The notes under the pieces: generated by a model
What the model saw: the letters and a program-made list of their open reading frames with translations, nothing else
Databases searched by the model: none
Told to the model about the DNA's origin: nothing
Position numbers and translations under genes: made by a program
NCBI RefSeq assembly: GCF_016097415.1
Contig: NZ_JAEHGE010000001.1
Location: 25,001-89,000, forward strand
Length of the DNA stretch: 64,000 nucleotides
Direction of reading: 5' to 3'
Source: a sulfur-oxidizing endosymbiont of Gigantopelta aegis
Lineage (GTDB): Bacteria > Pseudomonadota > Gammaproteobacteria > GRL18
Shown here: one piece after another, positions 22,682 to 50,457 of the stretch
Layout of the letters: each line of letters starts with the position of its first letter
Position numbering within the stretch: the first letter of the stretch is position 1

Positions 22682-23212
22682 ATGTTGTTTTTAACAATAA
22701 AAAACACGCTGCTAATGACGCTTATTTTATTGCTGAGTTTATTAGCGCCACTCATATTAGCCGATCATAAAACCACGACCGAGATGCATCGCCCCTCCAT
22801 AGTGCCAATCAGCAACCTTGCCCAATTGGCGACTCTGGCTAAAAAAAGACAATTACCCATTTTATTATTGTTTAGTACCGAAGGCTGTCCTTATTGCGAA
22901 CAAATAAAGGAAGAATTTCTTGTCCCCATGCTGATATCAGGTGAATATACCCATAGAGTCATTATTCGTGAATTAGAAGTCGCTGATGAAACCGACATTA
23001 TTGATTTTAGCGGCAAAAAAATCACTAGCTATGCATTCAGTCGCCGCTATAAAGTGCGCTTATTCCCCACCACAGCCTTTATCGACCATCAAGGCACTGC
23101 CTTAACAGAAAATATTATTGGCATTAACACCCCCTCTCTTTTCGGCGGGACCCTCGATGACCATATTGATGATGCATTAAGCTTAGTGAAAGGCCAATCA
23201 CCCCTGCAGTAA
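22682..23212 (+). CDS. Periplasmic thioredoxin-fold protein with CPYC motif
   Basis: 176 residues. The hydrophobic N-terminus (TLILLLSLLAPLILA) is a signal peptide. The fold contains FSTEGCPYCEQIKEEFLVPM with a CxxC pair and a cis-Pro region RLFPTTAFIDHQG, as in SoxW-like and other thiol-disulfide proteins. It would act in the periplasm. It lies directly ahead of a two-component pair on the same strand, but the 52-base gap contains no terminator I can see, so co-transcription is possible. The substrate is unknown. Confidence 0.65.
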   Translation: MLFLTIKNTLLMTLILLLSLLAPLILADHKTTTEMHRPSIVPISNLAQLATLAKKRQLPILLLFSTEGCPYCEQIKEEFLVPMLISGEYTHRVIIRELEVADETDIIDFSGKKITSYAFSRRYKVRLFPTTAFIDHQGTALTENIIGINTPSLFGGTLDDHIDDALSLVKGQSPLQ

Positions 23213-23264
23213 TTGCCTTTAAACTAGAGTAGAATGAGTAATTTCACACGCATTTAATGACTTA

Positions 23265-23948
23265 ATGACACATATTTTAGTAGTTGAAGACAATCCGGAT
23301 ATTTTAAGTAATTTACATGATTATTTAAGCTTAAAAGGCTATATCATTGACTGTGCCGATAATGGTCTCACGGCCTTACACCTCATTAGTTCGCAAAGTT
23401 ATGATTTAATTATTCTCGACATCATGTTGCCCGGTGTTGATGGTCTGAGTATTTGCCATAGTCTGAGAAACGATGCACATTTGAACACGCCCGTGATCAT
23501 GCTTACTGCTAGGGATCAACTCGAAGACAAACTCTTAGGTTTTCAAAATGGAGCTGACGACTATCTGGTTAAACCCTTTGACCTCAGCGAATTACTGGTG
23601 AGAGTGGAAGCCATTTTACGTCGTAGCCAAGCCAAGGATTTGCACAGTGAACTACAAGTTGGTGATTTAAAATTCAACCTCAATACCATGAGTGTCAGTC
23701 GTGCAGGTGATACGATCCAACTCAAGCCTGCCGCCTTGAAAATCTTACAAAAACTGATGCAAGCCTCACCCAATGTGGTCAAAAAAGAAACCCTGGAAGA
23801 ATTACTCTGGGGAGATGACTTGCCGGATAAGGACAATTTAAAAGCACATATCTATTTATTACGGAATAAAATTGATAAACCCTATCAACAAAAACGATTG
23901 ATCACCGTACATGGTTTCGGCTACAAACTCATTGCCAATAATGATTAA
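23265..23948 (+). CDS. OmpR/PhoB-family response regulator
   Basis: 227 residues. Receiver domain with the acidic pocket Glu8/Asp9, phospho-acceptor Asp52 (IILDIMLPGVDG), Thr81 and Lys103 (DDYLVKPFD). A winged-helix domain (LKPAALKILQKLMQAS, DNLKAHIYLLRNKID, HGFGYKLI) follows. The downstream histidine kinase gene starts two bases after the stop, so the two form a cognate pair. Targets unknown. Confidence 0.88.
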   Translation: MTHILVVEDNPDILSNLHDYLSLKGYIIDCADNGLTALHLISSQSYDLIILDIMLPGVDGLSICHSLRNDAHLNTPVIMLTARDQLEDKLLGFQNGADDYLVKPFDLSELLVRVEAILRRSQAKDLHSELQVGDLKFNLNTMSVSRAGDTIQLKPAALKILQKLMQASPNVVKKETLEELLWGDDLPDKDNLKAHIYLLRNKIDKPYQQKRLITVHGFGYKLIANND

Positions 23949-23950
23949 GC

Positions 23951-25234
23951 ATGCTTAAACATCAAAAACACAGCCTACACCAAGTTATAAAAAGTGCTTT
24001 TTTTCGCCTCACGGCCGCCGTCAGCATCAGCTTTGCCATCGTGTCCATCAGCCTGATCAGCTTTACTGAAAATAATTTGTTCATCCCCCATATGCAACAT
24101 GACTTTGAGCACATGATACATATTCATGCAATGCACACGGGTTTTGTTGTCGATCATTATAAAGATTCTGTTTTTTATCGCACCGATAAAGAGACTATGC
24201 ATCGTTTGCCCAGCTATTTACAATCGCTGTCTGTGGGTAAACATGAAGTGCTACACAATGACAAAGCATTTCATATTTTAGTGAAACAGGATGGCCAATT
24301 TCGCTATTTTTTTGAGGTCAATGAAAGTGACTTTGAGCAAATGGAACAAATGATTATTGCCATCATTGTTATTGCCATGTTTCTTAGCTGGACCGTGGCC
24401 AGTTTTTCCAGTCGTTTCTTGTCCCGAAAAATACTCGATCCCATTCAAGTGCTTTCCGATAAAATACGTCTGATGGATCAGAACATGAGTAATATCCATC
24501 TCATTGATGAATTTGCCGATGATGAAGTGGGACAGCTCGCCCGTTTTTTTGATGATTATAATCACAAAATCAACACCTATCTCACCCGAGAAAAATTATT
24601 CACCAGTGATGTCAGCCATGAACTACGCACACCGCTAATGGTGATCAGTAGCTCTTGTGAACTACTCTTGGCACAATCCGAAATAGAAACACACTCAGAA
24701 TCAAAACAACAGGCGCAATTATTAAAAATACAATCCGCCTGTCAGGAAATGAAAAGCCTGGTCACTATCTTTTTAGCCCTGGCACGAAATGATGAAGTTA
24801 ATCCCAACCTGACCAGCCTATCGGAGGTTTTAAGTCAGCAGTATGAAAAATATTTGCCCATAGCTGAAGCAAAGGGGCTTAAACTCATTTGTCTGCCCGA
24901 CAATGATGCCAGCCATACAGAAAAACGTTATTCAGAAGAATTTCTCACCATTATTATCGGCAATTTACTGGGCAATGCCATTAAGTACACCTTGCAAGGT
25001 GAAATTGTTATCAGCTTTAATGAGCAAGGTTTTTCCATTCGTGACACCGGCCCCGGCATTCCCGATGAAATTGCTGATTCAGTGTTTGATCCCTTCATTC
25101 AATATAAAACCAATCAAAATGATGGTATTGGCCTTGGCTTATCCATTGTCAAACGCATTTGTGAAAAGAAAGGCTGGGAAGCACACATTGAAAGTGACAA
25201 AGACAAGGGCACGATAGTAAGCATTGTTTTTTGA
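23951..25234 (+). CDS. Membrane sensor histidine kinase
   Basis: 427 residues. Membrane helices at about 17-38 and 128-152 bracket a periplasmic sensor loop of about 90 residues rich in His (EHMIHIHAMHTGFVVDHYKD). A HAMP-like linker, the H-box FTSDVSHELRTPLMVI, an N-box NLLGNAIKYT, a DTGPGIP G1 box and IGLGLSIVKRI follow. It phosphorylates the OmpR-type regulator encoded upstream. The His-rich periplasmic loop could bind metal, but this is only inference. A TlpA-like thiol protein gene follows after a 91-base gap. Confidence 0.85.
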   Translation: MLKHQKHSLHQVIKSAFFRLTAAVSISFAIVSISLISFTENNLFIPHMQHDFEHMIHIHAMHTGFVVDHYKDSVFYRTDKETMHRLPSYLQSLSVGKHEVLHNDKAFHILVKQDGQFRYFFEVNESDFEQMEQMIIAIIVIAMFLSWTVASFSSRFLSRKILDPIQVLSDKIRLMDQNMSNIHLIDEFADDEVGQLARFFDDYNHKINTYLTREKLFTSDVSHELRTPLMVISSSCELLLAQSEIETHSESKQQAQLLKIQSACQEMKSLVTIFLALARNDEVNPNLTSLSEVLSQQYEKYLPIAEAKGLKLICLPDNDASHTEKRYSEEFLTIIIGNLLGNAIKYTLQGEIVISFNEQGFSIRDTGPGIPDEIADSVFDPFIQYKTNQNDGIGLGLSIVKRICEKKGWEAHIESDKDKGTIVSIVF

Positions 25235-25281
25235 TCGGTCAATACGTATTATCAATAGCGTCATTATTTTTTATAATTGCC

Positions 25282-25309
25282 TTAACTATTAACTATTAAC
25301 TATTAACTA
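25282..25309 (+). repeat. Four perfect tandem copies of TTAACTA
   Basis: TTAACTA is repeated four times without a break, ending 16 bases before the start of the TlpA-like gene. This is a slippage-prone track in the 5' region of that gene and might act as a phase-variable or spacing element. Confidence 0.95.
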
Positions 25310-25325
25310 GAGTGGTATTCAGCGT

Positions 25326-25844
25326 ATGAAAATAACATCTCGCCTCATTGTCTCAATATTTAGCTTATTTTTTTTCTTGAGCGCAGCTAACCTTCACGCT
25401 GAAAAAATACCTGAGCTATCATTAATGGGCATTGATGATCAGCAACATGCAATGAGTGACTATATCGGCAAAGGTAAATGGGTGATTGTTAATATCTGGG
25501 GTCCCAAGTGCCCACCCTGTGTTGAAGAAATGCCGGAACTACAAAGCTTTCATGAAGATCACCAAAATAAGGATGCCATTGTCGTTGGTATTGCCATTGA
25601 TTATCCAAGCTTTGGCCCCGGCAATGCACAGGATGTGCGTGAGTTTGCTGAAGACAATTTTATTTCTTATCCCCTACTCTTAGGTGATACACAAAGCAGT
25701 GAACAGCTTGGCGCAGGTCCCTTAAGCGGTACACCGACCACCCTATTATTTACCCCTTCTGGCAAGCTTGAAGGTATGCAAGTTGGCGCCATCACACAAA
25801 AAATTCTCGAAGATTTTATAGCCTCAAACCCAGTCCAGCCTTGA
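25326..25844 (+). CDS. TlpA-like periplasmic thiol-disulfide protein
   Basis: 172 residues. Signal peptide (VSIFSLFFFLSAANLHAE), then a redoxin domain with WGPKCPPCVEEMPELQ and a typical beta-hairpin insertion (GIAIDYPSFGPGN). The active site CPPC matches TlpA/ResA-type reductases that keep cytochrome or other apo-protein thiols reduced. It follows the histidine kinase gene. A second TlpA-like protein is encoded at 49918 and shares little sequence beyond the active site. Confidence 0.8.
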   Translation: MKITSRLIVSIFSLFFFLSAANLHAEKIPELSLMGIDDQQHAMSDYIGKGKWVIVNIWGPKCPPCVEEMPELQSFHEDHQNKDAIVVGIAIDYPSFGPGNAQDVREFAEDNFISYPLLLGDTQSSEQLGAGPLSGTPTTLLFTPSGKLEGMQVGAITQKILEDFIASNPVQP

Positions 25845-30458: not shown

Positions 30459-31001
30459 ATGACAGCAACACGGAAAATTATCTACTCTCTCTCTTTGGCT
30501 ACAATTGCAACATCCCTACTCCTGACTTCCGGTTGCTCAAATAAAACCTTAAGCGACTATGTCACCGTTACCAACAAATCAGAAATTATTACCAATCCTC
30601 CTGGTGCAACGATTGTTGTCGATGATAAAGAAGTCGGTACTTCACCCATGATTTTTGAAGGTGAGAATATTTTCCCTCCACATTGGGAAGGCACTTCTTA
30701 TATGGTCAAGAGTCGTTTGGAAGTTAAAAGAAATGGTTGTAAAACTGAAACCCGTATTATTAAAGATCCTATTCCAAAAAGCATTAATATTAAACTGGAC
30801 TGTCAAGAACAATATAGAGTTGAAGAGCCTACTCATGCACAGCCTATGATGCAACGTCAGTCCGCACCGATGCCAGCACCTGTCATGATGCCAAAAAGTG
30901 TTGAAGATCGCTTGCTACAGATACAAAATTTGTACAAGAAAGGTTTGATCACTGATGCTGAAAATGCTGAATTACGTAAAAAAGCCTTAAAAGATCTCTA
31001 A
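30459..31001 (+). CDS. Lipoprotein with PEGA domain and C-terminal SHOCT helix
   Basis: 180 residues. A lipobox (LLLTSGC) ends the signal peptide, giving a membrane-anchored protein. Residues about 45-80 (TNPPGATIVVDDKEVGTSPM) form a PEGA-like beta-sandwich. A Pro/Met/Gln-rich linker precedes SVEDRLLQIQNLYKKGLIT and AELRKKALKDL, the SHOCT-type short helix. Family members occur as cell-envelope proteins of unknown function. Two dyad hairpins follow the stop. Confidence 0.7.
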   Translation: MTATRKIIYSLSLATIATSLLLTSGCSNKTLSDYVTVTNKSEIITNPPGATIVVDDKEVGTSPMIFEGENIFPPHWEGTSYMVKSRLEVKRNGCKTETRIIKDPIPKSINIKLDCQEQYRVEEPTHAQPMMQRQSAPMPAPVMMPKSVEDRLLQIQNLYKKGLITDAENAELRKKALKDL

Positions 31002-31200: not shown

Positions 31201-31226
31201 GGAATAAAATCTTAGGGACTTACGTC
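31201..31226 (+). promoter_or_regulatory. Candidate ECF-type promoter
   Basis: GGAATAAA (31201-31208), 14 bases, then CGTC (31223-31226). This resembles ECF-sigma promoters with a GGAA-type -35 and CGT-type -10. It lies 29 bases before the ECF sigma gene, suggesting autoregulation. It is a pattern match only. Confidence 0.35.
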
Positions 31227-31254
31227 TTATATAAGCTCGGACTAATTTTAATCT

Positions 31255-31788
31255 ATGTCAATATTACAATTTTGTTTTCGTAATAAGCAGTTAGAACAAA
31301 GACTTGAAACATGCAGAGAACGTTTATATCGCATTGCTTTTGCATGGTGTCACGATGAGATGCTGGCTGATGATTTGGTGCAGGACACCTTGGTCAAGGC
31401 ATTGTTACGCCTGAATCAATTAAAAAACCCCGAGGTGCTTGAATCTTGGGCAATCAGCATACTTAATAATTCTTGGCGGGATTATTTGCGGCGAAAAAAA
31501 GAATTCACCGATATTGATGAATTAGTTTATTGCTCAGATGAAACGCCGGATTATATACACGAGCGTGAACGCACTATCAATCAGGTTCGCCATGCGGTCA
31601 GCCAACTGCCAATGGGACAACGGCAGGTTGTGGCCTTAGTGGATCTGGAAGGTATGACCTATAACCATGTATCTCAAGTACTAGAGATTCCTGTGGGTAC
31701 TGTCATGAGTCGCCTGAACCGTGCCCGTAAAGCCATGTTGAAGCAATTAAGCAATGATACCAATATTGTGAAATTGCATCAGCAATAG
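31255..31788 (+). CDS. ECF sigma-70 family sigma factor
   Basis: 177 residues. Region 2 is LYRIAFAWCHDEMLADDLVQDT and AWA-type helix, followed by SWAISILNNSWRDYLRRKK. Region 4 is LPMGQRQVVALVDLEGMTYNHV and IPVGTVMSRLNRARKAML. This is a compact ECF sigma with no region 1 or 3. The gene is followed by one encoding a short-N-domain anti-sigma protein, 18 bases away, forming a sigma/anti-sigma operon. The signal is probably sensed through the partner. Confidence 0.88.
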   Translation: MSILQFCFRNKQLEQRLETCRERLYRIAFAWCHDEMLADDLVQDTLVKALLRLNQLKNPEVLESWAISILNNSWRDYLRRKKEFTDIDELVYCSDETPDYIHERERTINQVRHAVSQLPMGQRQVVALVDLEGMTYNHVSQVLEIPVGTVMSRLNRARKAMLKQLSNDTNIVKLHQQ

Positions 31789-31806: not shown

Positions 31807-32559
31807 ATGAATCATTCAATTTCAACTGAAATGTTAAACGCCTATATCGACAATGAGCTGGATAAAAAAGAATCTCAGGAAATCGAAAGGGCCATTAAAA
31901 ATGATAGTGAGCTAAGTAGACGGCTGGATGAAATTCAACAGCTTAAGCTGAAAGTCCAAGCGAGCTATGCGACTATTAGAGCACCGCTTCGTCAGGATGT
32001 TCCCATGGCAAAATCAAATTGGTTGCCGACCACAATAGCCGCCTCCTTAACCTTGGCAGTTGGTGTTTCTTCCGGTTGGTATGGCCATCAATATATTGAT
32101 GCTGGAGTTGTTTTGGGTGGTGCTATCGGCTCAGTGAATCAGGATGCCAGTGTCGAGAATCTGCTCGGTGTAAAGTTACAACCGGTGCAGGCACAGGATG
32201 ATAAAATCATTATCCATTTGGCACAAAATGATCGGGCTTTATTTGATAAGGCATTGGCAAAAGCGGAAGCCTTATTGGATCGCTTTGAAAAGATGGAGCA
32301 AAAAGGGTCAATTCAAGTGTTAGCCAACTCCTATGGCATGGATATTTTACGCAATGATAAGAGTCATTATAAAGAGCGCATTACTAAAATGATCAATGAA
32401 AATGACAATATTGAATTTGTTGCTTGTTCTAACACCATTAAACGTATGGAAGAAAGTGGTAAACAGGTTGATTTGATCGAGGGTGTGCAAGTACATGGCC
32501 CTGTAATTGATGAAATTGTGACCCACATGCAGGATGGTTGGACCTATATTAAGATTTAA
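31807..32559 (+). CDS. Anti-sigma-type membrane protein fused to a DsrE-like domain
   Basis: 250 residues in three parts. Residues 1-70 form an anti-sigma-type helical domain (LNAYIDNELDKKESQEIERA) lacking the zinc ligands of ZAS domains. A membrane helix follows at about 73-92 (LPTTIAASLTLAVGVSSGW). Residues about 132-250 resemble the DsrE/DsrF-like fold (DDKIIIHLAQNDRALFDKAL, NDNIEFVACSNTIKRMEES, GVQVHGPVIDEI), with a single Cys in EFVACSN. With the sigma factor inside and the DsrE part outside the membrane, a sulfur- or redox-responsive release mechanism is plausible but inferred. It follows the sigma gene as one operon and precedes a strong terminator. Confidence 0.7.
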   Translation: MNHSISTEMLNAYIDNELDKKESQEIERAIKNDSELSRRLDEIQQLKLKVQASYATIRAPLRQDVPMAKSNWLPTTIAASLTLAVGVSSGWYGHQYIDAGVVLGGAIGSVNQDASVENLLGVKLQPVQAQDDKIIIHLAQNDRALFDKALAKAEALLDRFEKMEQKGSIQVLANSYGMDILRNDKSHYKERITKMINENDNIEFVACSNTIKRMEESGKQVDLIEGVQVHGPVIDEIVTHMQDGWTYIKI

Positions 32560-32582: not shown

Positions 32583-32618
32583 AAAGGGCGATGAACTGAG
32601 TTCATCGCCCTTTTTTTT
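32583..32618 (+). terminator. Intrinsic terminator of the sigma/anti-sigma operon
   Basis: AAAGGGCGATGAA and TTCATCGCCCTTT form a perfect stem with a short loop, followed by a T run. Confidence 0.95.
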
Positions 32619-32858: not shown

Positions 32859-34208
32859 TTAGAAAATTGCAGTAACTTGGAATGATAAGATATCACCGAA
32901 GTCATTTATAATGTCATCGGCAGTATTATTATCATAGGCTTTAGCATCACGAAATGCATAGTTAACCGTTGCACGGGTTTTCTTGTTAAAGAAATACTGT
33001 GCACCAAGAGTCCATGTATCAAAACGGCGCTCATTACCACCACCGTTATTTGTATTCACTGAACCATCAGTACCTCTATTATAACGATCAAAACGTGCTG
33101 CAAGTTCTAATTTAGGTAACACTTTATAGCCAAAATCTAGATACCAACCATCAGCTTCTTCATCAGTTAGAATATTAAAGCCAGCAGCAATCGGTGCACC
33201 ATTTGGTGCCTTTCCTACATTTCCTGGAATAGTACCACCAGTAGTACCATTAAAAATCATACCTTTAGCTTTATTATATTCAGCAGAAGCACGAATTTTT
33301 CCTTTACGGTAGGTTGTTCCTATACCCCAACGTTTTCTGTCAAATTCATCTTCAACATAAGATGCAGGATTACCTTTACCATTATTCGTACTAGTAAGAA
33401 TTTCTCTAGTACCTTTGGTATACCAAGCAAATGTTTTCCAACCATCTCGACGCGCACGCTTACCGGTATAGACCTGTTCAGCAGAGAAATACAAATAATA
33501 ATCTTTATTATTATTATAGTCGCCCTGGTTCAAACCAGTACCATTACCAACCATACCAGAGTAACTAAACTCCCAATCTTCCATACCATCAAAAACGAAA
33601 GTATCAAATACTTGAATACCGGTATCACGAGCGGCACCAAATGCAGTCCATTCATTGCCACTCTTACATGTACTTTGATAGGATGAATTACCAGCTGTGA
33701 GACCATCAATACAAGCTAATTGTCCATCAACATCAAAATGGCGTTCTAATAGCTGTTGATTTGCATAACTGGTAAAATTAATCCAGTCAAATAAGGCAAT
33801 ACCCTGATACACTTCTTCACTCATTGGCGTCTTAAACTGGCCAACACGTACACGAGCACCTTTAATATGGTTAAAAGTCACACTGGCATCGGTTAATTCA
33901 ACCGCTGAACCATATTCTGTAATACCGTTCTTACCAAATTCCGCCAAAATGAAATAGTTGATTTTATCATCTAATGGAAAGCCCGCACCACGAATACCAA
34001 TACGTGCACGACGTAATTGGAATTGTGAGTTACTATCCAGATTTGGACCTATACTATTAAATGCTGCATCTTGACCCTTCCAAGCTCCTGCTGCTAATTT
34101 ATCATTTTCAACACGCTCATACTGAGGCTGTAAGAAACCCCAAACTTTTGCCAAGCCGATAAACAAAAGTGTTGATATTTTTGTATAAAAACACCCATAT
34201 TTGCTCAA
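32859..34208 (-). CDS. Phosphate-selective porin OprO/OprP-like protein, N-terminus rewritten by transposon
   Basis: 449 residues, starting at TTG 34206-34208. The mature part (KVWGFLQPQYERV, QFQLRRARIGIRGAGF, ASVTFNHIKGARVRVGQFKTP, SQQ-type beta strands) is a beta-barrel porin of the OprO/P family ending in a terminal Phe, as outer-membrane proteins do. The native signal peptide is missing: its place is taken by transposon DNA, and the 26-bp terminal repeat itself encodes ISTLLFIGL. This gives MSKYGCFYTKISTLLFIGLA before the natural mature start, which looks like a plausible but unproven signal peptide. Expression would depend on a promoter in or near the transposon. Confidence 0.75.
   Translation of the reverse strand: MSKYGCFYTKISTLLFIGLAKVWGFLQPQYERVENDKLAAGAWKGQDAAFNSIGPNLDSNSQFQLRRARIGIRGAGFPLDDKINYFILAEFGKNGITEYGSAVELTDASVTFNHIKGARVRVGQFKTPMSEEVYQGIALFDWINFTSYANQQLLERHFDVDGQLACIDGLTAGNSSYQSTCKSGNEWTAFGAARDTGIQVFDTFVFDGMEDWEFSYSGMVGNGTGLNQGDYNNNKDYYLYFSAEQVYTGKRARRDGWKTFAWYTKGTREILTSTNNGKGNPASYVEDEFDRKRWGIGTTYRKGKIRASAEYNKAKGMIFNGTTGGTIPGNVGKAPNGAPIAAGFNILTDEEADGWYLDFGYKVLPKLELAARFDRYNRGTDGSVNTNNGGGNERRFDTWTLGAQYFFNKKTRATVNYAFRDAKAYDNNTADDIINDFGDILSFQVTAIF
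34152..34177. repeat. Left terminal inverted repeat of the 6.46-kb transposon
   Basis: CAAGCCGATAAACAAAAGTG-TTGATA. It pairs with 40583-40608 at 24 of 26 positions. It overlaps the porin reading frame on the opposite strand, where it encodes ISTLLFIGL. Confidence 0.9.
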
Positions 34209-37200
34209 AGTAATGAATTTCCAAGTTTAGAAATAGTTTTTAACAATGCTTGTCTTTTGATTTTGTTATCTTCATTATGTGCTACTTCACTTAATGCTGA
34301 TAACTCTTTATGTTTCTTATTATCTGCATCAAATTCTGGTAAATTCATGTGTTTAAACACATTACCCACTTGAATTGAAATATTATGACTATCAATAAAA
34401 GCTTGTACTGTAGAGCTGTTTAGTAAACCACAAAGATAATAGGCTGGCTCTGAATCATAAAAATCAACAAAAAACAATTTGTGGTCGGGAACAAAAACTT
34501 TTTGACCACTGATAGGATCGTTACCTTTTGTAATGACTGCCGCTCTAAATGATTTATTGCCAGGCTGTTCAGGCCATACCACTTTAAATGGTGCGAAAGT
34601 ATAACTGCCAACATTTGAAATACAGAAATAAGGTGCGTGTTCTGTCATTCGTTTGCTATATGTTGATCTTAAAATAAGCTGGTCTTGATAGGTGCTAAAA
34701 AATCCTTCACACTTTGGTTTGTCTTCCATGTCATTTTCACAATCTTCTAATAACTGTTTTGTGATCCCCTTATTAGGCACCAGTACATATAAATCTTTTT
34801 TGATTGAGACATAACATTCCTGTATATCTCCAGCCCCTTAACTAAAGGATATAGAAAATCAGGTTCTATCCAAAACTTTCTTGCTGGTTTTACTTTTCAT
34901 TTCTTCCAAAGTCAGGGCAGGTTTCAATTTGCACCAAATTATTATTTTTATTTGTATCAATAATTTTTACAAAATAAATACCATTTAATTCTGTGGTTAC
35001 TCCTTTTCTGCCGTTAACCCAAGTGCTTGCACCAGTGATCTTTTAAATGCTTTAAAACCACCTTTCGGTGTAATAGCCCATGGTGAATCACCTCCCGTAA
35101 CAGGGGTTGCCTCACACTTATCAATGTCAACTGAATCAAGAGCTTCTTGTTTTGTGAGGTGAGCAGGGATTGCTTTTTATTTCCTTTAGCCGCTTCCCAT
35201 ATAGCATAGGGTATAGGATATTTTATTGTGTTACCTTTGCATTTTTTAGCAATAAAATAGCTGTTTTATTGGCTGCATCAGGAAATGGCTTTAAAGCTTT
35301 TAGATCATCAATCCCTACAGGTTGAATGATCTGATTATTTCCGATATAAAATGATCGAAAACCTGCTGAAGATGGTGATTGAAAATGAGTTTGCGTGATA
35401 ACAAATGCTAAAATTCCGTCTTCATCTTTGAGCCATTTATCTGCAACGGTATAGGTGATCATTCCTGATATATCAAGTTCATTTCCACCATGAAATTTTG
35501 TTTTTGAGAAAATTCCATAATGATCACAGGTTGGCTTTATACGTTCACGGTATAATTCGGGTAATTTTGACCATCTGACCCAAGGTGGATTACCAACAAC
35601 CACATCAAACTTTCCTGCAATAGCAGACCAGAAGAAATTACGCACTATACGAAACCAGATACCATTCCAGTTTCTTTCATGTAAATCCAGAATTTTTTCA
35701 TAAGTATGCTTGAGTGGTGATCTCCATTCTTTCATTTCATTGGATGTAATTAATTTTTTTGTATTAATTTTTTTCTGTCTCACGCCACTGAGTACTTTTT
35801 GAAACTAAATTATCCATTAGTAAAAATACGGAATCTAAACGACTTCTATCAAAAGCCAATTCTGAAGGCAATAAAATTTCAAGATCGGCTACTTCACTAC
35901 CAATTTTATAAGAGACAATCAATTCATCTTTTTAGGATTTCGAGCTGGGGAATACACTGCATCCGCTAAAAGAATCGGTATTTCTATATCTGTTCCTTTG
36001 TTATTGTCTAATAAATCAGAAATAGCGATTAATATATTCACTCGGGCAGTCTGGACTGCTAAAGGATTTAAATCAAAGCCCCAGACATTGTTTATGATGT
36101 GTTTTAACACTTCTAAATCACCCCACCCATCATCTGTTGCTTGTATTTTTATTTTCCTGATTAAAGCCAGTAAGAAAGAAGCTGAACCACATGTTGGATC
36201 AAGAAATCGTTGAGTTAAAAATTTTTTACATTGATTCTATCCAGAGTGACTTCAACCAACCATTCTGGTGTATAAACTTCACCCAGACTTTTCGTAGCTC
36301 ATTTGGCACGAGATCTTGATAAAACGACTTAAGAACATCTTTTGAACGTGCGGAAGTTAATTTATCCGCTCTATACATGGAGAATGAAAGCAAAATACCT
36401 TTTAATCCATCAATTATTTTGGCTTGATGTTGTTTCAATCTTGCAACATCAAGATACCAACTGAAAATAACTTCTTCTCCAAACCCATTTATTCCAGCAC
36501 CAGAAAAGAAATTACCCTGTTCAATTTCATATTCCATTCGGTCAATTAATAATTGACCATCAAGGCTGACTGTTTCTCTGATAAATCCTTTATAAGTGGT
36601 TAGTGCATGTTCGGCAACAACTTCTGCACCAAGAATTTTTATCAAAAGAGAGTTGTAAGTATGTATGACAAAAAGTGCAACAGGGATCTTCAATTCTTCA
36701 GACTTTTTTGTTCAGAGAAATTGACTTGAAATCCAATATTATCAAGAATCCCATTCACTTGGCTGATGGAAAGATTTGATGTTTGTCCATAAAGAGCTTT
36801 CCACTCTTCAAAGATCATTTTTATTTTATTATTATTTTTCTTTTCCAGTCGCTCTGATAATGCGTCAGATAAAGCCTGTAACATATTACAGCCAGCATCA
36901 GAACTATGACCAAAATCAGTGATTAGATTTTCTGATGTAACAGGAACCCATTTACAATCAGTCAGAGCCTTAACTATCAAAGATACACTGGATTCACTTA
37001 ATGGTAATAATGCATCATGAACTATTTTTCCTCGGCTGTACCGTGCAAATGCAATATGCTCTGCATCGGTAACTATTCCAATATAATCCTCATTGTCGAG
37101 GGATTCGAGTTTAGCACGAGTCGGGATATATTTTTTAAGCGATCAAACACCGCATTTTTAAATGCAGAACTGGAAGTACTGCCATTAAATAAGCCCTTAT

Positions 37201-37372
37201 CCTTAAATTCAATAATAACTCTGTTATAACTGGCATCAACTCTTTGCCTCTCCATTTGAAAAGGAATATTTAAAGCATCACCAATAATCTTTATCCATCC
37301 CTGGCGTACTTCTGTTTCATTGAGCCAGTTACCTTTGTCTTTCTTAAGTTGTTTGAAAATTGTTTTATTCAT
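34205..37372 (-). pseudogene. Fused restriction-modification (Eco57I-like N6-adenine) protein, frameshifted
   Basis: About 1,050 residues when frames are joined. The N-terminal part (34 to 100) has WLNETEVRQGWIKIIGDALN and SYNRVIIEFKDKGLF, resembling a PD-(D/E)xK nuclease site (E-x-K in EFK). The methyltransferase part has GEVYTPEWLVE, DPTCGSASFLLALI (motif I), GFDLNPLAVQTARVN and NPPWVRWSKLPE (motif IV), typical N6-adenine methylase. Open pieces lie at 37073-37372, 36690-36980, 36226-36693, 35919-36110, 35223-35783 and 34205-34780, each separated by single-base frameshifts, many in A/T runs. The protein is therefore not made intact. The frame ends 28 bases inside the left repeat. Confidence 0.75.
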
Positions 37373-37384
37373 AATGGCTCATAG

Positions 37385-37857
37385 TTAATTAGGTGAAAAA
37401 TAAATGATGTCTTCTGGACTAACAATGCCTTTTGCCAGACCTAAACGCATAGCGGGTGTTTTTTGTCTTTTCCTGCAATACAATAATTATAATAAACTCG
37501 GAATATATCGAGTAACTTAACAATGTTCTTTGGGTTGTAAGCAGAATACCCATACCACCTTCTGCCAGAACTGCTGGCAGATGAAATAGCTCGCTCTAAT
37601 AATGATAATCTACGTCTAACCTGCATAAAAAATTATCAATCCCATGCATGGAGGCTTTGTTATATAACCATGCCTGATGGTCTTCATCATAGTCACCATA
37701 ATCAGTAAGATAACAAATCGCTTTTTCTGGTTCAGACATATTAGGAAAAGGGTGTAAAAGCCATTTATCTTTCCAGTTTCCAATTTCCTGCATGTTTTCT
37801 AATCGATCTTTTATTATTTTTAATTTTATTTTATTTTTGATAAATCAGGGTGTGATG
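37385..37857 (-). pseudogene. Transposase-like gene, C-terminal part
   Basis: Joining frames across two single-base losses (a T run near 37612 and an A run near 37450) gives EIGNWKDKWLLHPFPNMSEP, CYLTDYGDYDEDHQAWLYNK, GIDNFFMQVRRRLSLLERA, SGRRWYGYSAYNPKNIVKLL, DIFRVYYNYC and GKDKKTPAMRLGLAKG, ending just before the restriction-modification start. I recall this C-terminal block from proteins annotated as transposases, with moderate confidence. It would belong with the zinc-ribbon N-terminal part at 40208-40526. The middle of the gene is missing and two IS3 copies lie in between. Confidence 0.5.
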
Positions 37858-47308: not shown

Positions 47309-49681
47309 ATGATAATAAAAACTCTACTCACTCGATTTATTTTATTCTTATGCTTGTCATTTATAGCAACAAGCAGTTTTGCTGAAGAAGAATTTTTACC
47401 CCCTGAAGAAGCTTTTGCCATACAACCTGCCAAGGTGGAAACGTCTGCAAGCGGCAATAAAGTCGTCATTTCCTGGAAAATTGCTGATGGCTATTATGTC
47501 TATCGAGACAAAGTCTCCTTCGATGCCAAAGGCTCAGAACTTAATTTGGGTGAAATGGCCTTATCACCGAGTAAAACTAAAAGTGATCCCTATTTCGGTG
47601 AGATTCAGGTTTATGCTAAAAAACTCATTGCAAAAATCCCCTATACCACAGAAGCAGAAAAAAATGCCTTATTGCATTTAAACGCCAAATCTCAAGGCTG
47701 TGCAGATGGCGGTATCTGTTACCCGCCACTCAAACAAGATGTATCTTTTAGCCATCCGGGAAGCTCTGTAGCCAGTACGCCGATGAATACTCTCGCATCC
47801 TCAGGCAGCTCAACATTCAATAGCAGCAATCAATCACTGTCTGCTTTAGCCGCCTTGGGTAATGAAGCGGACATGCAGGATGAATTTTTAGAAGTGGAAG
47901 ATGCGTTTAAATTCTCCCTTTCGGTCGGCAAAAACAATCAACTTGAAGCCATCTGGACGATTGCTGATAAGCATTATCTGTATAAGGACAAGTTCAAATT
48001 TGAACTCATTAAGGGCAATGGTTTTTCTATCCAAGATCCAATTATGCCTCCCGGAAAAGCCAAGCACGATGAATACTTAGGTGATTATGAAGCCTATTAT
48101 CATAATCTATTGCTCAATATCCCCGTCTCAGGCAAGGGCGATACCAGCAAGCCACTGGCCGTTAAAGTCACTTATCAGGGCTGTGCTGAATCCGGTATCT
48201 GTTATCCCAAGGTGACTAAAAACGTCGAATTAGATGTTTCTAATATCTCCGCAAGTACCGTTGCAACAGCAGCAACCATAGCAACAGCTCAGTCCGACAC
48301 CAAGCAAATTGGTTCCACGGTTGATTTTTCAGCTAGCAATACAGCAATGAATGCTGGCGAGATGCAGTCTGAACAAGATTTTATGGCCGGCATACTCAGC
48401 AATGAAAGCACCCTATTAGCTTTATTAACCTTCTTTGTTATTGGTCTTGGCCTCGCATTTACCCCCTGTGTTTTTCCTATGATCCCCATTCTATCCGGCA
48501 TTATTGCGGGTCAGGGGAAGGATGCTAAGACCAGTGCTTTCACCATGTCGGTTGTTTATGTACTGTCAATGGCCGTTGTTTATACGCTACTGGGTGTCGT
48601 GGCAGGATTATCCGGCAACAATATTCAGGCGATATTCCAAAATCCGTGGGTATTGGGTAGTTTCTCATTGATCTTTGTCTTATTGTCACTGTCCATGTTT
48701 GGCTTTTATAACCTGCAACTGCCTTCTGCATTACAATCAAAAATTTCTGAATTCAGCAATAAGCAGCAAGGTGGAACCTTAATTGGCGTTGCCATAATGG
48801 GTGTCTTATCAGCGCTGATTGTTGGTCCTTGTATGGCACCACCATTGATGGGAATCTTATTGTTTATTAGCCAAACAGGCGACCCACTATTAGGCGGTGC
48901 AGCTTTATTCGCCATGAGCTTAGGCATGGGCGTTCCTTTAGTCATCATTGGAACTTCTGCTGGCAAGTTAATGCCTAGAGCCGGAGTCTGGATGGATACG
49001 GTGAAAGCTGTCTTCGGTGTAGGATTGCTAGCCGTTGCCATCTGGATGCTGGAACGCATCCTGCCTGAGGTCATTACCATGTGGCTATGGGCGATATTAA
49101 TCTTTACTTCGGGTGTCTACATGGGCGCACTAACGCCTATCGCCGAAAACAGCACGGGCTGGTCTCGACTCTGGAAAGCCCTAGGTCTGATTTTCATGCT
49201 GTATGCCAGTTTGATCATCATCGGCGCATCATCTGGAAATACTGACTATATGCAGCCTCTCAAAGGTAACATGATGCAAACCAGTGCCAGTGGTACGGTC
49301 ACTGCTCAGCATGTTGCCTTTGAACGCATTAAGTCGCTTGATGATTTAAATCGTCGCCTGGCTGATGCCAAGAAACAAAACCGCCCGGTAATGTTAGATT
49401 TTTATGCTGACTGGTGTACTTATTGTAAAACCATGGAAAACACCACCTTCAGATCCCCTAAAGTTATCTCTGCCTTGGATAATTTTATTATCTTACAGGC
49501 TGATGTGACCGATATGGATGATATTGACACTGCGCTAATGAAAACACTACAAGTACCCGCACCACCTGCAATGTTATTCTACTCACCTAAAACCGGTGAG
49601 CTGAAAAACTTCCGCGTTGTTGGTTATAAAAATGGTGATGACTTTGCTGCACATGTGAAAAAGTTTTCTGGCACACTTTAG
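47309..49681 (+). CDS. dsbD: Thiol:disulfide interchange protein DsbD with two N-terminal alpha domains
   Basis: 790 residues against about 565 in E. coli. Signal peptide to about 25. There are two successive DsbD-alpha domains (about 30-150 and 195-320), each with its own Cys pair (QGCADGGICYPP and QGCAESGICYPK), then a polar linker. The eight-helix beta domain follows with FTPCVFPMIPIL and IVGPCMAPPLMG. The C-terminal gamma thioredoxin domain has FYADWCTYCKTME. It passes electrons from cytoplasmic thioredoxin to periplasmic proteins. The doubled alpha domain is the unusual point; the extra domain may serve a second set of partners. Confidence 0.93.
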   Translation: MIIKTLLTRFILFLCLSFIATSSFAEEEFLPPEEAFAIQPAKVETSASGNKVVISWKIADGYYVYRDKVSFDAKGSELNLGEMALSPSKTKSDPYFGEIQVYAKKLIAKIPYTTEAEKNALLHLNAKSQGCADGGICYPPLKQDVSFSHPGSSVASTPMNTLASSGSSTFNSSNQSLSALAALGNEADMQDEFLEVEDAFKFSLSVGKNNQLEAIWTIADKHYLYKDKFKFELIKGNGFSIQDPIMPPGKAKHDEYLGDYEAYYHNLLLNIPVSGKGDTSKPLAVKVTYQGCAESGICYPKVTKNVELDVSNISASTVATAATIATAQSDTKQIGSTVDFSASNTAMNAGEMQSEQDFMAGILSNESTLLALLTFFVIGLGLAFTPCVFPMIPILSGIIAGQGKDAKTSAFTMSVVYVLSMAVVYTLLGVVAGLSGNNIQAIFQNPWVLGSFSLIFVLLSLSMFGFYNLQLPSALQSKISEFSNKQQGGTLIGVAIMGVLSALIVGPCMAPPLMGILLFISQTGDPLLGGAALFAMSLGMGVPLVIIGTSAGKLMPRAGVWMDTVKAVFGVGLLAVAIWMLERILPEVITMWLWAILIFTSGVYMGALTPIAENSTGWSRLWKALGLIFMLYASLIIIGASSGNTDYMQPLKGNMMQTSASGTVTAQHVAFERIKSLDDLNRRLADAKKQNRPVMLDFYADWCTYCKTMENTTFRSPKVISALDNFIILQADVTDMDDIDTALMKTLQVPAPPAMLFYSPKTGELKNFRVVGYKNGDDFAAHVKKFSGTL

Positions 49682-49800
49682 GTCAAGATAGCTATTCAAT
49701 CTGAGTTCTGGATAATAATTACGAGCAAGTTAACTTAATAGTGGTGCGCTTCGTTCCTCAGCAGCACCCTACGCTTGTCTGCAAGTGATGTATTGTAGAT

Positions 49801-49891
49801 CGTAGGGTGGGCACGCTTTTTGTGCCCACGCTGAAAGTGTGAATACAATGTATTGAGTCAGCGTGGGCAGATAAAGCCATGCCCACCCTAC
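49801..49891. repeat. REP/MITE-like 91-bp palindromic repeat, second copy
   Basis: GTAGGGTGGGCACGCTTTTT opens it and GCCATGCCCACCCTAC closes it; the inner parts pair as in the 32687 copy. A partial related sequence (GTGGTGCGCTTCGTTCCTCA) lies at 49741. It separates dsbD from the TlpA-like gene. Confidence 0.85.
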
Positions 49892-49917
49892 TTACTTTAG
49901 GCCAAAATAACTAATCG

Positions 49918-50457
49918 ATGACTTCTAATAGTAAAAAAATTGCCATTATTCTCACCATTATGATCACTGCTCTATTGTGGATCTTTTGGCTTCCCGGCAA
50001 TCTTCGCCAGGAACAAAGTGAAATCATCCAGAAGTCACACAGTCTAAAGTTTCAAGACTTCAGCTTGCCTGATCTCAAGGGGCAATCACAGTCTTTTGCA
50101 CAATGGCAGGGAAAAGTCGTACTGCTCAACTTCTGGGCAACTTGGTGTCCACCCTGTCGTTATGAGATGCCTGATTTTGTTGAGGTTTATGATCAATATA
50201 AAGACCAGAATTTTGTCATCATCGGAGTGGGTACTGATGATCCGGCAAAAATTGCGAAATTTGTCGAACAACTCAATGTCAGCTACCCCATCCTTGTTGG
50301 GGGCCGAGAGGCGATGCAGATATCCTATCAATACGGTAACCATAGTGGTGCTTTACCCTATAGTATTATTTTTGACCAACAGGGCAACATTCGTTATCGT
50401 GCCGGTGGGATGATGACAAAAAAACAATTATTAGCACAAATCAAACCCCTTCTGTGA
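49918..50457 (+). CDS. TlpA-like thioredoxin-fold protein
   Basis: 179 residues. The N-terminal membrane anchor (IAIILTIMITALLWIFWLPG) is not obviously cleaved. The redoxin domain has FWATWCPPCRYEMPDFVEVY and a cis-Pro in SGALPYSIIFDQ. It probably receives electrons from the DsbD encoded just upstream and reduces apo-cytochrome or other periplasmic thiols. Confidence 0.82.
   Translation: MTSNSKKIAIILTIMITALLWIFWLPGNLRQEQSEIIQKSHSLKFQDFSLPDLKGQSQSFAQWQGKVVLLNFWATWCPPCRYEMPDFVEVYDQYKDQNFVIIGVGTDDPAKIAKFVEQLNVSYPILVGGREAMQISYQYGNHSGALPYSIIFDQQGNIRYRAGGMMTKKQLLAQIKPLL

Follow-up and report, generated by a model that had tools for sequence, protein, structure and literature searches.

An anti-sigma factor with a DsrE-like domain as a candidate receptor for extracytoplasmic sulfur in sulfur-oxidizing bacteria

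The closest described systems are the ECF26 sigma factors RpoE1 and RpoE4 of S. meliloti and SigE of Starkeya novella, encoded in consecutive sigma and anti-sigma genes, with anti-sigma factors of the COG5662 type, and linked to reduced sulfur in the form of thiosulfate and sulfite-generating compounds. RpoE4 and SigE control sulfite oxidation genes and are tied to sulfite-generating compounds (PMC6527743, PMC3511301), their regulons include sulfite dehydrogenase, and mapped transcription starts place a -35 element GGAAT and a -10 element CGTC in their promoters (PMC6527743). The same study states that the sensing of sulfite by anti-sigma factors needs further work. Control of sulfur oxidation by sulfane sulfur is represented by SoxR and sHdrR of Hyphomicrobium, which are described as sulfane-sulfur-responsive repressors of the ArsR type. 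An effect on sox genes has also been published for ECF sigma/anti-sigma pairs of the same type as the one analyzed here, with no mention of DsrE in the main text. How the regulators of sulfur oxidizers sense external sulfur is considered poorly understood (PMC11582611).

The locus analyzed here lies in a stretch of 64,000 nucleotides (hereafter, the window) from a sulfur-oxidizing endosymbiont of Gigantopelta aegis and shares with the ECF26 systems the consecutive sigma and anti-sigma genes, the GGAAT/CGTC promoter, and a proposed link to reduced sulfur, but apparently differs from them in that the anti-sigma factor carries a DsrE-like domain; this likeness to ECF26 is judged by promoter and gene order. 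The comparison cases also differ in provenance, S. meliloti and S. novella on one side and the class of the window on the other. The features of the locus are as follows.

30459..31001, + strand: lipoprotein-like gene (PEGA/SHOCT) upstream of the sigma gene; Pfam PEGA E 0.005, below the cut-off
31201..31229, + strand: predicted sigma-operon promoter, GGAATA-N16-CGTCTTA, an exact match to the strict motif
31255..31788, + strand: ECF sigma factor gene, 177 aa; Pfam Sigma70_r2 5e-13 and Sigma70_r4_2 6e-14, sigma70-ECF superfamily 2e-25
31807..32559, + strand: gene for an anti-sigma factor with a C-terminal DsrE-like domain, 250 aa; from domain matches, model and family alignment
31807..31986, + strand: N-terminal anti-sigma-like domain without zinc ligands, residues 1-60; three model helices, zf-HC2 in relatives
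32023..32100, + strand: predicted membrane helix, residues 73-98; from the model helix and hydropathy
32197..32556, + strand: DsrE-like domain, residues 131-250; 1l1s match, Foldseek and VIA-align, pLDDT 84-95 per block of ten
32425..32427, + strand: codon of Cys207, conserved throughout the family, with no second Cys in the C-terminal part
32586..32618, + strand: terminator-like hairpin with T-run, 3' of the anti-sigma gene; by eye, unscored
32859..34151, - strand: 3' portion of a porin gene, with the ORF call extending to 34208; Porin_O_P 9e-15

The fusion of the two domains is a conserved arrangement. A family profile built from 28 members and searched in 369 sampled genomes of the window's class matched in 101 of them, with the full-length fusion (profile start at or before position 12 and end at or beyond position 240, as read from the rows) in 66, which, by hand count, represent 41 families; a chance open reading frame or a fusion confined to one genome is thereby ruled out. 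In a sample of the phylum, the full-length fusion was detected in 3 of 398 genomes, which include the own genome of the window and belong without exception to its class, and the seven inspected loci from other classes encode DsrE-like proteins with no ECF gene in the short stretch covered. In a phylogenetic tree, a single split, with a support of 0.998, sets all 68 DsrE domains of the anti-sigma factors apart from 53 other DsrE-like proteins, as would be expected if the fusion arose once. The counts of loci given below refer to a set of 66, which consists of the window, 17 relatives (L021-L037), 10 named loci (L057-L066), and 38 of 40 loci picked downward from the head of the class listing, and so not a random choice. 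These 66 loci contain 68 anti-sigma factors, as L126 and L138 each harbor two sigma/anti-sigma-DsrE pairs in tandem. Left out of the counts were the duplicates L049-L056 (contigs of L021-L028) and L111 and L113 (contigs of L057 and L065, as their lengths indicate), along with L067-L069, with a partial match, and L038-L040, which lack the fusion. A single DsrE-like gene of L064 enters the counts as two ORFs.

The AlphaFold2 model of the window protein begins with three helices (residues 7-14, 20-32, and 34-55). The Pfam zf-HC2 domain matches this protein at E 0.0014, under its cut-off, and matches 19 of the 28 aligned family members at E <= 0.1, and the zinc motif HxxxCxxC is absent from the first 60 residues of all 68 anti-sigma factors, in agreement with the initial description of this region, from the sequence, as anti-sigma-type helices devoid of zinc ligands. 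ChrR and RsrA exemplify the zinc-binding redox type of anti-sigma factor, a reading that is ruled out for this family because the motif is lacking throughout. The following helix of the model, residues 73-98, coincides with the most hydrophobic stretch of the window protein, yet its mean KD over 19 residues is 1.15, the family minimum, compared with a family mean of 1.88 (68 anti-sigma factors). In 67 of the 68, no other part of the protein is as hydrophobic as the segment that joins the two domains, its KD is at least 1.6 in 58, and the flank N-terminal to the segment is the more positive side in 60. The single membrane helix of the original annotation is a predicted one, weak in the window protein, and the predicted topology, based on these sequence features, likely places the N-terminus of the anti-sigma factor inside and its C-terminus outside the inner membrane.

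Past the membrane segment, residues 131-249 of the window protein match MTH1491 (PDB 1l1s) at E 8e-9, and the structural model leads to the same protein, with E 6e-9 in Foldseek and with Z 17.6 and rmsd 1.9 over 110 residues in VIA-align. Structures lower in the VIA-align ranking include YchN (Z 13.3), DsrE (2hy5_A, Z 12.1), and TusD (2d1p_A, Z 11.9), whereas the rows from rank 11 on are other folds with Z <= 6.9. The first-pass annotation, which postulated a DsrE-like domain of about 120 residues with one Cys, proposed a profile search as one check, and the outcome of that search is divided: the match to 1l1s and the Pfam DsrE hits in 11 of the 28 family members (E <= 0.1, best 1e-6) support the assignment, but at E <= 1 the same Pfam model (PF02635) has no match in the window protein. 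Fold and family bear out the DsrE assignment, which Pfam does not give for the window sequence, and the size and the lone Cys of the domain are as originally described. The fold is held in common with MTH1491, DsrE of DsrEFH, and TusD, but the window domain differs from all three in sitting behind an anti-sigma domain and a membrane helix, with a single Cys, and differs from TusD also in the lack of a significant sequence-profile match.

Cys207, within the motif EFVACSN, is located in the model at the end of a strand (202-207), ahead of a helix (208-216), and is invariant in the 28 aligned members as well as in all 68 anti-sigma factors. Each of the 68 has exactly one Cys C-terminal of the membrane helix, always in the position of Cys207, so that a disulfide switch inside the C-terminal part of one chain is disfavored; Trp245, near the C-terminus, is likewise present in all 68. 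In the alignment with 1l1s, Cys207 falls on a Cys of MTH1491. In DsrEFH, the conserved Cys78 of DsrE is reported to be the sulfur-binding residue (PMC3397948), and Cys207 is likely the counterpart of this Cys78 of DsrE/TusD. That correspondence rests on fold and position because the sequence profiles fail to reach TusD significantly: a profile of the exported relatives described below yields one 11-column stretch, with Cys on Cys78, at a non-significant probability of 0.4%, and the anti-sigma profile aligns with nothing in TusD. The exported relatives also align weakly with 3pnx, Cys with Cys. As for the chemistry of the fold, DsrE3A treated with tetrathionate is reported to acquire Cys-S-thiosulfonate at its cysteines, and the DsrE homolog DsrE2B took up none of the small sulfur compounds tried (PMC4175335); DsrEFH accepts no sulfur from thiosulfate or glutathione persulfide (PMC3397948).

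An ECF sigma factor gene directly precedes the anti-sigma gene, in the same direction, in 66 of 66 loci found via the anti-sigma factor, an adjacency beyond chance given this count; in the window, where the initial annotation had placed an ECF gene right in front of 31807-32559, the gap between the sigma stop and the anti-sigma start is 18 bp. A DsrE-like ORF is present within the fetched stretch in 41 of the 66 loci, often divergent from the sigma gene, and a porin gene in 32, often behind the DsrE-like gene; the remaining 25 loci, without a DsrE-like ORF in that stretch, include the window, whose own gene is elsewhere in the genome. Inspection of 23 aligned DsrE-like relatives, and of those 23 only, revealed an export leader at each N-terminus (Tat-like in L046), so that the generalization that DsrE/DsrF proteins normally act in the cytoplasm, with which the first-pass annotation started, does not hold exclusively here. 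All 23 carry a Cys equivalent to Cys207, and hhalign of the exported and anti-sigma DsrE profiles gives a probability of 99.5, with Cys on Cys. Pfam DsrE matches 22 of the 23 at E <= 0.1, NCBIfam has no match for any of the 23 at E <= 0.01, and the model of an exported DsrE-like protein from the own genome has a mean pLDDT of 90.7. A lipoprotein-like gene directly precedes the sigma gene in L021-L024, with PEGA over the cut-off in L023. In four of the 66 loci (L021, L024, L066, and L148), soxB is found at a distance of at most about 2.5 kb from the pair; three of these genes score over the SoxB cut-off and the fourth, truncated in L024 where the contig stops, is unscored. An ATP sulfurylase gene is also present in L066, some 3 kb from the pair.

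The upstream regions read TGGAATAAAA...CGTCTWA before the sigma and DsrE-like genes, in both directions of divergent regions. Relaxed to GGAAT-N15-18-CGTC, the motif stands upstream of sigma in 51 of the 66 loci and upstream of 33 of the 47 DsrE-like ORFs, compared with 10 of 493 other genes, and in four further loci (L021-L024) it precedes the lipoprotein gene that heads the sigma operon. The relaxed motif is missing before both the sigma gene and a lipoprotein gene heading its operon in 11 loci, in which a looser look for variant motifs found nothing consistent, and before 14 of the 47 DsrE-like ORFs. The ten other genes with the motif comprise the four lipoprotein genes of L021-L024 and three divergent genes for SoxB-like metallophosphoesterases, which match the SoxB model at E 5e-29 to 5e-53, far under the cut-off, and are possible additional regulon members:

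L114 1-1362, - strand: SoxB-like metallophosphoesterase gene, divergent from sigma, with motif
L120 3086-5260, - strand: SoxB-like metallophosphoesterase gene, divergent from sigma, with motif
L130 4494-6626, + strand: SoxB-like metallophosphoesterase gene, divergent from sigma, with motif

In two loci of one genus, the motif also stands before a gene that looks like DsbD. Altogether, 90 of the 122 occurrences of the relaxed motif in the 66 loci, on both strands, fall within 147 regions upstream of sigma, DsrE-like, and porin genes, where 4.5 would be expected, an excess whose significance is overstated since the loci are homologous. The strict form, GGAATA-N14-17-CGTCTWA, has two exact matches in the 4.9-Mb own genome, compared with three for the reversed control, and 33 matches in 57 genomes, compared with 64 for the control, that is, no enrichment by count. 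It is the location of the matches that is telling: the two in the own genome are before the sigma gene (31201-31229) and before an unlinked gene for an exported DsrE-like protein about 440 kb away, and 19 of the 33, by hand comparison, are before sigma operons, DsrE-like genes, or porin. The motif is informative through place, not number.

The motif was derived here before it was compared with the published ECF26 consensus, so the agreement is independent. Sequences of the form GGAA(T/C)/CGTC resemble ECF promoters generally, which makes the match to ECF26 suggestive rather than unique. With this qualification, because the motif equals the mapped consensus of RpoE4 and SigE, the window sigma factor probably reads a promoter of the ECF26 type. 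The genes behind the promoter differ from the ECF26 regulons with their sulfite dehydrogenase: those with the motif here encode DsrE-like proteins and porin.

A search for further regulon members in the own genome with a looser pattern came to nothing: its 27 matches are 24 copies of one 26-mer, the two known sites, and one match that falls, on the opposite strand, within a secretin-like coding ORF and was taken as chance. The motif-like 26-mer, identical in all 24 copies (for example, G000:C1 476409-476434), is probably a mobile element.

The own genome has three other DsrE-like genes, two of them without the motif, and the locus itself appears rearranged. Many relatives, for example L057-L063, have a porin first, then the DsrE-like gene, sigma, and anti-sigma; behind the sigma/anti-sigma pair of the window comes a porin ORF that lacks a signal peptide. 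The pieces concerned are as follows.

Window 32859-34208: porin part
Window 34152-37693: duplicated stretch
L045 67-3615 and 6447-6530: the other copy of the duplicated stretch and the 5' part of the porin gene
L046 6502-7092, + strand, and L047 6379-6879, + strand: further own-genome DsrE-like genes with export leaders, one of them Tat-like, without the promoter motif

The 5' part of the porin gene is found behind the unlinked DsrE-like gene, 440 kb off, and ends about where the part in the window begins, and a 3.55-kb stretch that begins at 34152 has a counterpart of 99.5% identity close to that DsrE-like gene. In view of the near-identical stretch and the complementary porin parts, it appears that the old locus was split by a duplicated, probably mobile stretch, with the DsrE-like gene retaining its motif. 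The 3.55-kb stretch flanks both porin parts and contains fragments that, by look, resemble transposase and DNA methyltransferase genes.

The connection to sulfur oxidation extends to the genomes as a whole. In the class sample, 65 of the 66 genomes with the fusion and 84 of the 303 without it encode SoxB (best E <= 1e-130; Fisher p 3e-29), a p value that is inflated by relatedness, co-occurrence not being independent of descent; the spread of the fusion over 41 families makes descent alone an unlikely explanation. The genome lists were compiled by hand, and one genome, G121, was scored as SoxB-positive although its contig-cut match lies under the curated cut-off. The own genome contains two dsrA and two SoxB genes, all over their cut-offs.

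The reading that we favor, and consider moderately probable, is that of an ECF26-like pair in which the anti-sigma factor would sense a sulfur species outside the cytoplasm and would govern the exported DsrE-like proteins and the porin. The suggestion of the first-pass annotation that the DsrE part acts as a sulfur reporter gains from the order of the domains, the lone Cys, the motif common to sigma and DsrE-like genes, and the SoxB co-occurrence. Under this proposal, the pair would consist of an ECF26-like sigma factor and a transmembrane anti-sigma factor that would bind it, with the DsrE-like domain in the periplasm, where Cys207 would react with or receive a sulfur group, either sulfane sulfur or a thiosulfonate derived from thiosulfate or tetrathionate. 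The sulfur might reach Cys207 directly or via an exported DsrE-like protein or another periplasmic carrier; its presence at Cys207 would alter the anti-sigma factor and free the sigma factor, and RNA polymerase would then read GGAAT-N16/17-CGTC promoters in front of the own operon and of the genes for exported DsrE-like proteins, the porin being read along with or behind the latter. A bolder and rather doubtful version holds that protein-bound sulfur made in the periplasm by Sox moves on via exported DsrE-like carriers until it reaches the anti-sigma factor at its DsrE domain; what the sigma factor reads would then be the relay itself and not a small molecule. If true, this would define a receptor class for extracytoplasmic protein-bound sulfur across dozens of families of sulfur oxidizers.

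RseB acting on RseA provides an analogy for a different account, in which the DsrE domain is a docking site where the exported DsrE-like protein joins it in a mixed oligomer, and what is read is the amount or loading of that protein, not sulfur. The sigma and DsrE-like genes carry the same motif, so such docking would make a feedback loop, in line with the DsrE-like ORFs in 41 loci and the motif before 33 of 47 of them, and DsrEFH is reported to work as a hexamer (PMC3397948); we nevertheless hold this account to be unlikely, as 25 loci have no DsrE-like ORF in the fetched stretch and an anti-sigma Cys that is invariant would be unnecessary for pure docking. The shared promoter consensus with RpoE4 and SigE could also signify that the ECF26 sulfite response has a counterpart in Gammaproteobacteria, in which sulfite would react with the Cys. 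The genes seen here with the motif, which encode DsrE-like, porin, and SoxB-like proteins, speak against such a sulfite sensor, as does the reported failure of externally added sulfite to induce the S. meliloti reporters (PMC3511301), and we assign it a low probability.

The DsrE fold might also be a mere scaffold for a reactive Cys in a general sensor of periplasmic thiols and oxidants or of thiophilic metals: one Cys per chain could give a disulfide-linked dimer or bind metal, and thioredoxin-like and DsbD-like genes (by look) occur elsewhere in the window. SoxB in nearly all fusion genomes and DsrE-like targets point instead to sulfur, and a second C-terminal Cys is absent from all 68 proteins, so this appears quite improbable. 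Finally, the hydrophobic segment could be no membrane helix at all, the C-terminal part then residing in the cytoplasm and sensing cytoplasmic sulfur carriers. TusBCD is cytoplasmic, and the segment is only weakly hydrophobic in the window protein; DsrEFH, too, is cytoplasmic (PMC3397948). Against this stand the higher hydropathy of the segment across the family, its top rank in 67 of 68 proteins, and the export leaders of the inspected DsrE-like relatives, and we regard a cytoplasmic location as very improbable.

The favored reading, that of an anti-sigma factor sensing extracytoplasmic sulfur, bears a likeness to SoxR and sHdrR in the proposed sulfane-sulfur-responsive control of sulfur oxidation, but those are ArsR-type repressors, whereas here a membrane receptor would act via a sigma factor. 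The initial claim that a sulfane-sulfur-sensing ECF switch would be a new type has to be narrowed, as RpoE1 and RpoE4 (PMC3511301) and SigE (PMC6527743) are already reported to respond to sulfur compounds; sulfur-responsive ECF factors and sulfane-sulfur repressors are known, and the new part is the DsrE receptor domain on the anti-sigma factor. Among the titles and openings of abstracts listed from open-licence PMC full text, with supplements excluded, none describes a DsrE domain in an anti-sigma factor; one apparent mention of DsrE (PMC2729926) is DsRed, and PMC3511301, the second paper with such a word-start match, does not appear among the matches for DsrE as a whole word. With a conserved DsrE-receptor anti-sigma factor, one invariant Cys, and few motif-defined targets, the question of sulfur sensing becomes directly testable, and the exported DsrE-like family, which lacks an NCBIfam name, acquires a functional hint.

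Other parts of the window deserve mention. Thioredoxin-like and DsbD/TlpA-like genes, named by look, flank the locus at 22682-25844 and 47309-50457. Just upstream of the sigma operon, the segment 26033-30375 encodes a ModA/CysP-like substrate-binding protein, a sensor kinase, and a FixJ/TtrR-like regulator; the sensor kinase has a phosphonate-binding-type domain and is TtrS-like (308 bits, compared with a cut-off of 750), and these genes possibly constitute a second sensor of sulfur compounds.
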